Source: Micrococcales bacterium
GTDB taxonomy: Bacteria > Actinomycetota > Actinomycetes > Actinomycetales > Microbacteriaceae
Assembly: GCA_947489135.1 (NCBI GenBank)
Contig: CANLCU010000010.1
Coordinates: 1-32,139 of the forward strand
Direction: 5' to 3'
Length of the DNA: 32,139 nucleotides
Within the stretch, counting starts at the first letter, position 1, and the number at the start of each line of letters is the position of its first letter. The position numbers and the translations under genes are program-made. The notes beneath the pieces were generated by a model. It was not told the origin of the DNA. It did no database searches and saw nothing but the letters and a program-made list of their open reading frames with translations. Shown here in pieces: positions 20,718-24,124 of the stretch.

Positions 20718-21089
20718 ATGCGAAAACTAGAGCGAGATGAAGCTGATCTCTACTTTGAACTCTTAGAGCCAGCTCAGGCCAAGGTTCTACTTGAGCTTAG
20801 AGACCGGATGGTCAGGCTTGCCAAGGCTGAGCCTGAGCTAATCATCAGCTACCAGTTACCTACTATTCGAGTGAAGGGCAAGAACTTCTTAGCCTTCGCA
20901 GCTTGGAAGAACTTCTATTCCATTTATCTACTTAGTGGTTCTCTAGGCAAAGTAGTTGAAGGTTCCCTTACTCAGGGCGATCTGGAAAAGTCGGCACTCA
21001 GATTTGCTTGGGATGAAAAGGTAACCGATAAGACACTAAAACTTCTTATTTCAGCAAAGACTAAAGAGTTGCTGGAGAGATCTCGCTAG
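20718..21089 (+). CDS. DUF1801 (YdhG-like) protein
   Basis: A 123-residue small protein of the DUF1801/YdhG-like group. The core IISYQLPTIRVKGKNFLAFAAWKNFYSIYLL matches the family pattern of a beta strand, a (K)GK turn and a cluster of aromatic residues, split here over residues about 42-73. The family's biochemical role is poorly defined; some members are described as iron chaperone-like by analogy with frataxin folds. No signal peptide or metal-binding cluster is visible. The start at 20718 has no ribosome site. The stop overlaps the convergent metallo-beta-lactamase-fold gene by 4 bases. Confidence 0.8.
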   Translation: MRKLERDEADLYFELLEPAQAKVLLELRDRMVRLAKAEPELIISYQLPTIRVKGKNFLAFAAWKNFYSIYLLSGSLGKVVEGSLTQGDLEKSALRFAWDEKVTDKTLKLLISAKTKELLERSR

Positions 21090-21721
21090 ATTTCTATTGA
21101 TTCACCGTTTAGTAAATAGGTGAATTCTCCACCTTGAGCTTCAGTTAGTTGCTTCACTCGACCATTGTTTAGAGCATGACCAAAATCACTGAGTAGAGCG
21201 TTATGGGTGGCGATGGATTTCTTGTGTTTGATGGCTGACACGAAATCCATCACTTCACCAATCTTGAGCCATGGGGCACTAGTTGGCACAGCTAGTAGTT
21301 CAACTTCACGGTCTGGAAGAGTGAAGGAATCTCCTGGGTAGAAGACCTTGTCATTGATAAGCACAGCTCTGTTTTCTATTACAGGAATACTGTGATGGAT
21401 TTGAGCATGAAGATCTCCCATGAACTCAATGGTGAATGGGCCAACCGGGTAATGATCACCATGATAAACAGCAGTTGTTTTGTAGTTAGCAAGACGAGTG
21501 CAAACCTGAGGGGGACCGAAGATCATTAGGTCTGGATTGGTTGCTAGTAGTCGGTCTAGCTGTGCTTCAAAGCAGTGGTCATCGTGAGCATGGGTAATCA
21601 CAACTGCCACAACATCAGTAAGCCCTACTTGAGGTTCACTATAGGAACCAGGGTCTAGAACCAGCTTCTTGCCTGACTCTTCAAAGATTAGACAGGCATG
21701 ACCTTGCTTTGTTATCTTCAT
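21086..21721 (-). CDS. Metallo-beta-lactamase-fold hydrolase (UlaG-like)
   Basis: A 211-residue stand-alone MBL-fold protein. The metal motif is THAHDDH with His44, His46, Asp48 and His49. Further ligands are likely the His in GDLHAQIHH, the Asp in YPGDSF and the His in IATHNA. KLVLDPGSY near residue 20 is typical of the UlaG/L-ascorbate-6-phosphate lactonase-like and YtkL-like group, in which real substrates are mostly unknown. TAAGGT lies six bases before the ATG on the minus strand, so the mRNA is probably leaderless. It is divergent from the degenerate ATPase gene with only 37 bases between the starts. Confidence 0.85.
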   Translation of the reverse strand: MKITKQGHACLIFEESGKKLVLDPGSYSEPQVGLTDVVAVVITHAHDDHCFEAQLDRLLATNPDLMIFGPPQVCTRLANYKTTAVYHGDHYPVGPFTIEFMGDLHAQIHHSIPVIENRAVLINDKVFYPGDSFTLPDREVELLAVPTSAPWLKIGEVMDFVSAIKHKKSIATHNALLSDFGHALNNGRVKQLTEAQGGEFTYLLNGESIEI

Positions 21722-21758: not shown

Positions 21759-23237
21759 ATGGACACCGAAACCAAAGAGCCTTCTAGGGCTATAGGCCTT
21801 CCAGCTACGGCACTTAGCCATACCGGAGTAAGCGTTATAGCCCTCTTAGCTCTATTGGTCGCAGCCATCTTGAATGTTGATCTATGGATTCAATTTGGAA
21901 GTGCATCAGCCTTTGTAGCCCTAAATATTCTTATTACCTCACGAGTCAACAGATTGATTACTGAACCGTTTGGCTCACCAGAAGAACAAGAGCTCGTAAA
22001 TCTAGCAACTCAAGAGGTCTCTGACAAAGAGAAGAGGATAGCTCTTCTAACCAAGTATTGGCCCGCAGCAACCCTAGTGTTCGCTATTGTCGCTGTGCTC
22101 TTATCGGCAGGTGGGCAGTTCAATTTTGTTTCTGCTCTATCTGTGTTTGCTGCTTGTCTACTTCTAACCAATAGCCATGCTTTGGCTTTGGTTATTCCAT
22201 TCGGGTTTTCAAGAACCATCAGATTGGCATTTACCTCGGGAGTTGTAATTCGAAGCAGAGTTGCTTTTGAGCAGTTAGCCAAGGTCAATCTTTTGCTGTT
22301 CACTAAAGGTGGAGTTCTTACGGACCTGCCTAAAGGTGTGAACTCTGTTCGACTTTCTACAAAGACTTCTTTCAAGGATGAGAGCAAGTTACTAGCCCTT
22401 GCAGCAAGCGTTGAATCTCTATCCCAGCATGCTTTCGCTAAGGCGATATCTAGGTCCGCTGAAAATTCAAATCTGAGAATTACAAAACCTAAGGACTTTA
22501 GAGAGTTTCCGGGCTTTGGTGTTGAAGGAGTTGTTTCGGGCAAGCGGGTTCTTGTTGGATCTACTGCTCTGTTGTTGCAGAGAAACATTCGAATGGAAGT
22601 TCAAGAACTTATTTATGCAGATGAAAGTACGAAGAGTGGCTACTCGATTGTTTGTGTAGTAGTTGAGGGTGTTCTAGAGGGAATCCTTAGATTCACTGAT
22701 GTAGTCAAGGAATCATCTGTTGATGCTGTATATCTAGTTGCTAGAGAGAGAATCAGGGTAGGACTCATTACAGGAGACTCTGCTGGCACTGCTCAACATA
22801 AAGCTGAGCAGCTAAACATCTCTGAGGTTTATGGAGAGCTATCGCCAGAACTAAAAACTATGTTCGTTGCAAGTCAGCAGGCTAAGGGTGCTTTGGTTGC
22901 AGTAATTGCTAACCCAGATACCGACAATGGTCTCCTTGATCAGGCTGATGTGAGCATCGCCCTAGGTGAGCACGGTTCAGATACTGCTGATGTTTCGGTT
23001 TCTAGTGATGACCCAGAAAAGGCGGCTGACGCTGTTGCTCTGAGCTCAAGGCTCAGAAAGAAGACGAGTCAAAGTCTTGCTGTTGGGCTTGGCTACAGCC
23101 TTGTATCTATGGGTGCTTTTGTTGCGATTGTGTCACCTTTGCAATTTGTTACACCTCCAGCGATAACTGCGATGCTAGGGTCACTTTCATTGATTGTTGT
23201 AACACTGAATACTTATTCACTTAGAAAGTTGAAATGA
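21759..23237 (+). CDS. Degenerate P1B-type ATPase homologue, probably inactive
   Basis: A 492-residue membrane protein related to heavy-metal P-type ATPases but stripped of catalytic parts. Helices lie near 24-40, 46-62, 103-120, 124-150, 437-460 and 466-485. Only about 40 residues separate helices 2 and 3, so the actuator domain with TGES is missing. The CPC metal motif is NSH (138-140, before ALALVIP). The DKTGT loop reads TKGGV (182-186), with Thr182 for the phosphorylated Asp. The HP motif is HA (224-225). GDGIND reads ANPDTD (384-389). Retained are GFGVEG, TGD (338-340) and QADVSIALG, which make the kinship clear. There are no stops or frameshifts, and hydrophobicity is intact. Transport is not expected. 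It overlaps the lipid kinase gene by 4 bases. Confidence 0.85.
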   Translation: MDTETKEPSRAIGLPATALSHTGVSVIALLALLVAAILNVDLWIQFGSASAFVALNILITSRVNRLITEPFGSPEEQELVNLATQEVSDKEKRIALLTKYWPAATLVFAIVAVLLSAGGQFNFVSALSVFAACLLLTNSHALALVIPFGFSRTIRLAFTSGVVIRSRVAFEQLAKVNLLLFTKGGVLTDLPKGVNSVRLSTKTSFKDESKLLALAASVESLSQHAFAKAISRSAENSNLRITKPKDFREFPGFGVEGVVSGKRVLVGSTALLLQRNIRMEVQELIYADESTKSGYSIVCVVVEGVLEGILRFTDVVKESSVDAVYLVARERIRVGLITGDSAGTAQHKAEQLNISEVYGELSPELKTMFVASQQAKGALVAVIANPDTDNGLLDQADVSIALGEHGSDTADVSVSSDDPEKAADAVALSSRLRKKTSQSLAVGLGYSLVSMGAFVAIVSPLQFVTPPAITAMLGSLSLIVVTLNTYSLRKLK

Positions 23238-24124
23238 CCACTTTAGGAATCGTTATTAACCCAACCTCAGGTAGAGGTAAGGGAAAGGTTTTTGGGGAAC
23301 AGGCACTAGCTGAATTTGCTAAGCACGCAATTGAGATTATTGATCTCTCTGCAGAGAACTTTAAGGCAGCAGCTAAGAATGCTAAAGATGCAGTTGAAAA
23401 GAAACTCATTGATGGTCTTGTTGTTGTCGGTGGCGATGGAATGTTCCATCTGGGTGTGAATGCTGTTGTGAAAAGCGATATTCCTGTTGGGCTTATTGCA
23501 GCTGGAACTGGAAATGATTCAGCTAGAGCACTAGGTCTACCTATCCACAATGTTGTTGATGGAGTAGCGGCTCTAGTTTCTAAGATTGGTAAGACTCGCA
23601 AAGTTGACTTGATTGAATCCAAGTCAAATGACAGAACCTTCTATTCTTTTGGAGCTGTTTCTGCCGGGTTTGATGCTCTTTGTAATGCACGTGCGAATAA
23701 GTGGAAGTGGATTACAGGTCCAATCAAATATCGCTTTGCTATGTATCGAGAGCTAGCGGCATTCAAGCCAATTCCTTATCGAGCAGTTGTTGATGGTGTT
23801 GAAAGAGTATTTGAAGCCATTCTCTGCACTGTCTCTAACTCGCCTTCATACGGTGGTGGATTACTAATCACTCCTGAAGCCAAGGTGGATGATGGCAAGC
23901 TGGATCTGTTTATCCTGAATGCCATTAGCCGGATAGAGCTCATCAGACTCTTCCCTAAGGTTTATTACGGTGGTCACGTTGGCCATCCAGCGGTAGAGAT
24001 CATCAGGGTGGAAAGCCTTCAACTTCACTCTCCAGGAATGCCTGCTTACTCCGATGGCGAGCATGTTGGAGCAGCCCCAGTTACCTGTGTGGTTTCTCCT
24101 AAATCCTTGAATGTAATGGCCTAA
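23234..24124 (+). CDS. Diacylglycerol kinase-family lipid kinase
   Basis: A 296-residue kinase of the DAGK/YegS/DgkB fold. The N terminus has NPTSGRGKGK (9-18), the nucleotide loop is VVGGDGM (64-70), with Met where Thr is more usual, and AAGTGNDSARALGLP (89-103) is the third signature. A beta-rich C-terminal domain follows. Family members phosphorylate diacylglycerol, sphingoid bases or related lipids at the membrane; the substrate here is not known. The ATG overlaps the stop of the ATPase-like gene (ATGA), so the two products are made together. Confidence 0.9.
   Translation: MTTLGIVINPTSGRGKGKVFGEQALAEFAKHAIEIIDLSAENFKAAAKNAKDAVEKKLIDGLVVVGGDGMFHLGVNAVVKSDIPVGLIAAGTGNDSARALGLPIHNVVDGVAALVSKIGKTRKVDLIESKSNDRTFYSFGAVSAGFDALCNARANKWKWITGPIKYRFAMYRELAAFKPIPYRAVVDGVERVFEAILCTVSNSPSYGGGLLITPEAKVDDGKLDLFILNAISRIELIRLFPKVYYGGHVGHPAVEIIRVESLQLHSPGMPAYSDGEHVGAAPVTCVVSPKSLNVMA

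Follow-up and report, generated by a model that had tools for sequence, protein, structure and literature searches.

Pseudo-enzymes are well known among kinases and proteases, where pseudokinases and iRhoms have lost their catalytic residues with the fold and the selection on it kept, and proteins of this kind often regulate their active relatives. No family of P-type ATPase pseudo-enzymes was found described in the open-licence literature. The accessible part of a 2023 review (PMC10654040) contains no pseudo-pump, and the accessible part of another article (PMC3896382) counts 22 sequences without an intact DKTGT motif among 9,634 P-type ATPases, described there as single point mutations and regarded as possible errors, non-functional proteins or specialised pumps.

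Here we analyse a locus within a stretch of 32,139 nucleotides (the window; contig CANLCU010000010.1 of assembly GCA_947489135.1, Microbacteriaceae) that encodes a degenerate metal pump. The 67 genomes compared here, that of the window among them, belong to a genus of tiny freshwater bacteria that we infer to be Rhodoluna. No relevant paper joining Rhodoluna and P-type ATPases was found in the open-licence literature; of two articles on these bacteria, the main text of PMC8591293 contains no ATPase, copper or lipid kinase, and PMC12422013 has nothing on the pump gene and one unrelated mention of an ATPase. Judged by its sequence, the window protein is real, selected and non-pumping, and it is part of a conversion that took place repeatedly at a single locus.

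Architecture of the window protein

The pseudo-pump gene is flanked by two other genes, and the features needed below are the following (window coordinates).

21086..21721, minus strand: divergent metallo-beta-lactamase-fold (MBL) hydrolase, left neighbour of the pseudo-pump
21759..23237, plus strand: degenerate P1B-type ATPase (pseudo-pump) of 492 aa, with six membrane helices, P and N domains and no actuator domain
21963..22022, plus strand: residues 69-88, a short loop joining membrane helices 2 and 3 at the place of the actuator domain in canonical pumps (AF2 model, no PF00122 match)
22170..22178, plus strand: N138-S139-H140, aligned with the CPH metal-site position
22302..22325, plus strand: T182-K-G-G-V-L-T-D, aligned with DKTGTLT; the phosphoacceptor Asp is lost, and Lys183 and Thr188 stay
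22428..22430, plus strand: His224, the N-domain His of the HP motif, kept
22512..22523, plus strand: G252-F-G254-V, the N-domain GxG, kept
22533..22661, plus strand: C-terminal part of the N domain (residues 259-301), with higher identity than TM3-4 and TM5-6 in 7/7 multi-member degenerate clades
22770..22778, plus strand: T338-G-D340 (TGD), kept
22908..22925, plus strand: A384-N-P-D-T-D389 at the GDGIND position, second Asp kept
23234..24124, plus strand: YegS/DgkB-type lipid (diacylglycerol) kinase, whose start overlaps the stop of the pseudo-pump by ATGA

The open frame starts with ATG and runs through its 492 codons with neither stop nor frameshift, as stated in the original prediction, and the residues listed there were found as described: Thr182 at the phosphoacceptor position, NSH at the metal motif and ANPDTD in place of GDGIND. 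The fold markers GFGVEG, TGD and QADVSIALG are all present, and sequence and model agree on the six remaining helices. The reading of the HP motif as H224-A was likewise right, but its interpretation as a loss was not, since locus pumps with otherwise complete motifs read HS, HV, HP or HA at this position (HA in G084, in which all other motifs are canonical). The ancestral metal motif, given as CPC, is CPH in the canonical pumps of the locus, a motif that we take to be the mark of class P1B-3. The statement that every catalytic signature had disappeared was too strong, as K183, T188, H224, the GxG, TGD, K366 and D389 all stay. Eleven of the columns invariant in a 40-row P-type alignment are kept in the window protein (K183, G185, T188, H224, G254, D314, G339, D340, K366, D389 and G403), so that much of the P/N machinery is retained; what the alignment shows as lost is chiefly D182, T184 and T186, together with the actuator, the metal motif and the greater part of GDGIND.

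Compared with the features that define a P-type ATPase, the protein has the TGD, the P-domain Lys (K366), a P domain with an inserted N domain and the six-helix core, and lacks the phosphorylated Asp of DKTGT, the TGE actuator (PF00122) and the GDGxND hinge; the CPx of helix 4 expected of a P1B pump is NSH. Among the NCBIfam models, the curated cut-off of TIGR01494 (P-type ATPase) was passed (69.3 vs 62.3 bits) and that of TIGR01525 (P1B heavy-metal ATPase) was not reached (204.7 vs 346.25 bits). The only Pfam match was the HAD hydrolase PF00702 (33.4 bits, cut-off 26.4, residues 204-383); PF00122 gave no match to the protein even at E up to 1, and none at E 0.001 across the window assembly, which is 79% complete.

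The AF2 model obtained from the 40-row alignment (in which 36 of 47 non-redundant viral-contig rows were used) has a mean pLDDT of 89.1, in comparison with 46.9 for an earlier 4-row input, and a pTM of 0.85, and shows the six membrane helices together with the P and N domains. A single 12-residue helix (74-85) lies between helix 2 (42-68) and helix 3 (89-116), and only residues 69-88 are available there, which bears out the prediction of a loop too short for an actuator domain; that domain is absent from the model. The best Foldseek match was a copper P1B-ATPase entry (7r0g, query TM 0.75), and the P/N part was matched to CopA with ADP-Mg (3a1d) with a target TM of 0.91, at 2.1 A and 30% identity. 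A first scan of viral contigs found no relative. An antisense open frame of 192 aa (window 22010-22588, minus strand) lies within the pseudo-pump gene.

Orthologues and selection

Close orthologues of the window protein were found in three of the 67 genus genomes (G080, G011 and G089; 495-500 aa, 59-61% identity), all with the same architecture: TK[GS]G at the phosphoacceptor motif and the TGE columns in none. PF00122 reached only sub-cut-off scores in these three (19.9-25.5 bits), over the C-terminal half of the model and without the TGE columns. Together with the window protein they form clade A, within which identity is 59-82%. The identity of the window genes to these orthologues is 59-61% for the pseudo-pump and 91-94% for the lipid kinase beside it.

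The NG86 dN/dS of the pump gene was 0.109-0.214 in five clade-A pairs, and that of the neighbouring genes in the same pairs 0.018-0.079, with dS values of 0.94-2.57 for these pairs that are partly saturated. Values near 1, the sign of relaxed selection, were not found. In all six clade-A pairs the 95% bootstrap ranges of the whole-gene pN/pS fall within 0.14-0.48, and the pN/pS values themselves are 0.18-0.41 in clade A (five pairs) vs 0.12-0.29 in the canonical pumps of the locus (four pairs). The clade-A genes are thus under purifying selection; the window gene evolves fast and is somewhat less constrained than the canonical locus pumps, yet it is far from neutral. No internal stop was seen in the orthologues despite a dS of about 1 to 2.6, and the stop-flagged matches G028, G019 and G067 are those in which the alignment extends beyond the stop codon of the frame itself. 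The expectation of a pseudo-ATPase kept for another purpose is therefore supported by the three orthologues of like architecture, the dN/dS values and the actuator-less model. An ordinary pseudogene is ruled out by the open frames, the dN/dS of 0.11-0.21 and the architecture shared by four species, and an assembly artefact by the four agreeing genomes and the degenerate forms present at the locus in the one-contig genomes G006, G017 and G059.

Synonymous divergence is uneven along this locus. In four of the five clade-A pairs (drawn from the window, L053, L054 and L055) the pump gene has 1.5-2.1 times the dS of the adjoining lipid kinase, for example 1.33 vs 0.77 in G011-G089, and in the pair G080-G011 it has a lower one (0.94 vs 1.49), a possible sign of recombination. 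At the 3' end of the pump gene (window 23064-23234, residues 436-492) the clade-A pS is 0.34, about half of that of the remaining gene, which perhaps reflects recombination or a constraint near the start of the kinase. A second kinase copy, 94% identical to that of the window, is found with downstream genes at the edge of contig C3 of G089 (L167), possibly from a strain mixture in the assembly.

States of the locus across the genus

The slot holds a canonical CPH pump in 20 of the 67 genus genomes (two of them, G072 and G004, partial genes scored on the part present) and a degenerate gene in 30, and is empty, with the MBL gene adjoining the kinase, in four (G032, G060, G003 and G076); the other 13, with for example the locus at contig ends, fall outside this count. 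All 30 degenerate genes are single open frames, 29 of them complete within their contig and one (G074) cut by the contig end. The phosphoacceptor Asp is lost in 22/30, the TGE-bearing part of the actuator in 19/30 and the CPH in 30/30. The degenerate forms are distributed as follows, where 'no actuator' denotes empty TGE columns.

Clade A (window clade, 4 genomes): Thr at the Asp position, no actuator
G074 (single genome): Asn at the Asp position
Clade B (3 genomes): Asn; actuator with TGE
Clade C (3 genomes): Asn; actuator with TGE
G081 (single genome): Asn; TGE lost
Clade D (3 genomes): Glu in G009, Asp kept in G017 and G059; TGE and CPH lost in 3/3
Clade E (4 genomes): Asn or Gly; 323-337 aa, essentially P/N domains
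Clade F (6 genomes): Asp (DKTGT) kept; TGE part of the actuator gone
Clade H (3 genomes): Asn; no actuator
Clade I (2 genomes): Ala or Pro; 379 aa; no actuator

The C-terminal half of PF00122 scores above the cut-off in 5/6 clade-F genes and below it in G002, G080, G011 and G089; in the canonical pump of G024 the whole model spans residues 225-410, the CPH stretch of helix 4 included. The gene of G009 (L067:6298-8331) encodes an otherwise nearly full-length protein with EKTGT, and the Glu in place of the catalytic Asp could mimic phosphorylation. The R. lacicola genome (G006) carries a P/N form of 325 aa at the locus and, at another site, a pump of 827 aa with the full set of motifs. A crude hydropathy scan showed one C-terminal membrane helix in G028 and G010 and flagged an additional internal stretch in the R. 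lacicola form, which we read as a strand of the N domain, given that residues 297-315 of the window protein were flagged as well and are modelled as strands.

Ancestry and number of conversions

A search of 249 genomes of the family with a canonical locus pump gave matches of which the best 30, not a random draw, were read; 29 of them come from outside the genus and represent 16 other genera. DKTGT is present in 30/30 of these best loci, and within 1.5 kb of the pump the MBL gene is found in 28/30, the lipid kinase in 26/30 and both in 24/30, so that the three genes stand together in at least 13 other genera. The ordinary pump is, from these loci, the older state of the slot, and an entry of the pump into the locus in the genus ancestor is ruled out by the 24/30 in which all three genes occur. 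A search of 398 genomes of the family with the short form of R. lacicola as query listed extra-genus matches that all have frames of at least 640 aa except G370, in which a 539-aa open frame is the sole shorter one among the matches listed; full-length degenerate forms may still occur beyond the genus. In the order-level kinase search no pump lay within 1.5 kb of 29 other kinases, nor was a pump found within 1.5 kb of the kinase at 17 loci of 14 small-genome relatives or at two loci of genus g23; the MBL gene stands alongside the kinase in 5/19 pump-less kinase loci of the family.

The gene tree unites the 50 genes of the locus in a single clade (100/99) that excludes 12 other P1B pumps, and the window gene lies inside this clade of CPH pumps from the same locus, as would be expected of a P1B-3 descendant. 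Between canonical and degenerate forms the gene tree requires at least 6 changes and the species tree, built from concatenated neighbours, at least 9, counts that by themselves do not tell gain from loss. The minimum for changes of the Asp is the same on each tree, and that for the actuator is 6 on both. The species tree, which leaves out G066, G072, G004 and G022, groups clade A with the canonical G024 (96/86), and the gene tree joins long branches; when G074 is omitted, or a mixture model is applied to 20 rows, clade A remains within the G024 group with its exact sister not fixed. On this phylogenetic evidence, conversion to the degenerate form happened repeatedly at one locus in the genus. 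The canonical G034 (L157) lies beside the degenerate G073 (L155) on the species tree and outside G021 (L156) and G073 on the gene tree, a conflict that may reflect a possible exchange of the locus between species.

Segments that remain constrained

A closer look at the degenerate genes showed that the losses are unevenly placed. Of the residues invariant in canonical pumps, the ten degenerate clades retain, weighted by clade, a fraction of 0.84 for residues 259-301 (8 columns), 0.75 each for the opening part of the N domain and for hinge-P2, 0.70 for the P1 motif and 0.59 for the stalk; the fraction falls to 0.45 near GDGIND and to 0.29-0.37 for the membrane helices. His224 is kept in 26/30 degenerate rows and Gly254 in 29/30; the N-domain His is lost in clade H and G081, so nucleotide binding may not be general. 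Within-clade identity is higher in 259-301 than in TM5-6 and TM3-4 in all seven multi-member degenerate clades and shows the reverse order in two canonical clades, the TM3-4 value of clade E resting on few columns. Some segments exceed 259-301 in identity: in F and H the P1 motif, in E the P1 motif and, by a small margin, the stalk, and in C the GDGIND end. As the segment was defined after inspection of clade A, only the other six clades are independent tests.

The pN/pS of 259-301 is 0.03-0.20 in six degenerate clades vs 0.27-0.50 in two canonical clades, and that of TM5-6 is 0.31-0.47 in six degenerate clades vs 0.07-0.19 in two canonical clades, the clade-A ratio for TM5-6 combining a modest pN (0.13) with a low pS (0.34) on which it partly rests. 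Relative to the kinase, TM5-6 evolves at a rate of 1.95-3.15 in the degenerate genes and 0.24-0.64 in the canonical ones, about 3-13-fold relaxed (seven clades). The corresponding rate of 259-301 is 0.22-0.52 in B, F and H, where it is tightened in comparison with the canonicals (1.21 and 1.75), and 1.12-1.94, much like the canonical values, in A, C, E and I; with 1.94 times the kinase rate, the segment is kept and not tightened in clade A. At the GDGIND end, relaxation is clear in A, F and I, and the rate is 0.86-0.99 times that of the kinase in B, C and H vs 0.40 and 0.83 in the canonicals. G068 was left out of clade F in the segment identity, pN/pS and kinase-normalised comparisons, and G019 out of clade E in the last two.

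Possible role of the pseudo-pump

These patterns suggest the following course. The gene descends from an ordinary CPH-type (P1B-3/CopB-like) metal pump, which stands between the MBL gene and the lipid kinase in many genera of the family, and in the clade of the window this pump lost the phosphoacceptor, the actuator domain and the metal site, so that, at the level of sequence and model, the phosphorylation-driven transport cycle should not run. What appears to remain under selection is a membrane-anchored P/N-domain module with the N-domain His, the GxG, the TGD and Lys366, which may bind a nucleotide or a partner through its N domain without phosphoryl transfer and may relay the bound state, as a regulator or sensor, to something in or at the membrane. 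We give nearly an even chance to the proposal that the window protein is such a module, anchored in the membrane, unable to pump and probably a nucleotide-binding regulator. The degenerate pumps of the genus keep much of the ATP-holding domain and probably do another job. The ancestral pump may already have had a second, N-domain role, in which case pumping could be dropped several times with that role kept. It is a serious possibility, though one held tentatively, that the locus pump was bifunctional, exporting metal and, as a distinct task of its N domain, signalling or binding a partner, and that pumping was discarded some six times or more in Rhodoluna with the N-domain role kept (tightened in three clades), down to P/N modules of 323-325 aa with a C-terminal membrane helix. 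Against the reading as a selected module stand the fast evolution, the loss of the gene at the locus in four genomes, the untightened 259-301 of clade A and the GDGIND end that is not relaxed in B, C and H.

The same observations can be read as those of a slowly decaying relic, a pump useless in streamlined plankton that is held by residual folding constraint and by undisturbed translation into the kinase. The fast evolution, the relaxed membrane parts, the clade-A pN/pS that tends above the canonical one and the absence of a pump in the four empty slots, and between MBL and kinase in G373 and G451 of a small-genome genus of the same family, would fit such a decay. We nevertheless consider it rather unlikely, as the orthologues have no internal stop at their large dS, 59-82% identity is kept inside clade A, and one and the same N-domain segment is constrained in seven clades and tightened in three. 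Another suggestion, made originally as a scaffold, is that the pseudo-pump is a regulatory or membrane-anchoring partner of the co-translated lipid kinase: the ATGA overlap of the window recurs as the same 4-bp overlap at the other three clade-A loci, and the kinase is beside the pump in 26 of the best 30 family loci. However, G017 (L068) and G059 (L069), one contig each and 99% complete, carry an intact degenerate gene (dN/dS 0.088) with the Asp kept and TGE and CPH lost, with no lipid kinase beside it and no match in the genome at E 1e-15, and the four genomes with an empty slot keep the kinase. By gene content, neither needs the other in general; a scaffold as the general explanation is unlikely in view of these six genomes, and a partnership of the proposed kind is improbable.

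A role as pseudo-paralogue, regulating or pairing with an active P1B pump still present in the same cell, would agree with the habit of pseudo-enzymes of acting on active relatives and with the further actuator-domain match present elsewhere in each of G080, G011 and G089. No actuator domain was found, though, in the assembly of the window genome, nor in the incomplete G010 and G019, and we think such a pairing quite improbable. Transport by an unconventional route, with another phosphoacceptor or an actuator acting in trans, could make use of the TGD, Lys366 and the six-helix core that remain, and clade F does combine DKTGT with the absence of the TGE part of the actuator; with phosphoacceptor, metal motif and actuator all missing, an assembly that shows no actuator domain and a relaxed TM3-6, it is the barest of chances.

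Comparison with known systems

One orthologous slot in related species thus ranges from working-type pumps through several kinds of partly stripped ones to minimal P/N modules and to sites without the gene, states whose comparison can reveal in which order parts were lost and which part matters. The surprise lies in the repeated conversion at one locus, with a mechanism that can be tested; were the bifunctional reading true, the genus would offer a series of natural intermediates from transporter to pseudo-enzyme. R. lacicola is available in culture, takes up DNA by natural transformation and allows gene replacement, according to the accessible part of PMC11577799, and since it also carries a minimal version, the purpose of the dead pump is open to experiment.

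The heavy-metal ATPases of class P1B-3 (CopB-like, with the CPH motif) are the ancestral group by gene tree and synteny, and have the P and N domains and the six-helix core in common with the window protein, which unlike them is without the phosphoacceptor Asp, the actuator domain, the CPH and the GDGxND. The P/N-domain fragments of CopA (3a1c, 3a1d, 3a1e and 2b8e) share with it the P/N fold, the N-domain His and the GxG, but they are pieces of an active pump, whereas the window protein is a natural protein with Thr for Asp. Pseudo-enzymes in general show the same loss of catalysis with fold and selection kept. The sequences without DKTGT in the accessible part of PMC3896382 are, like the window protein, natural sequences that lack the motif; they are described there as single point mutations, whereas at the locus of this genus several lineages have lost many motifs.
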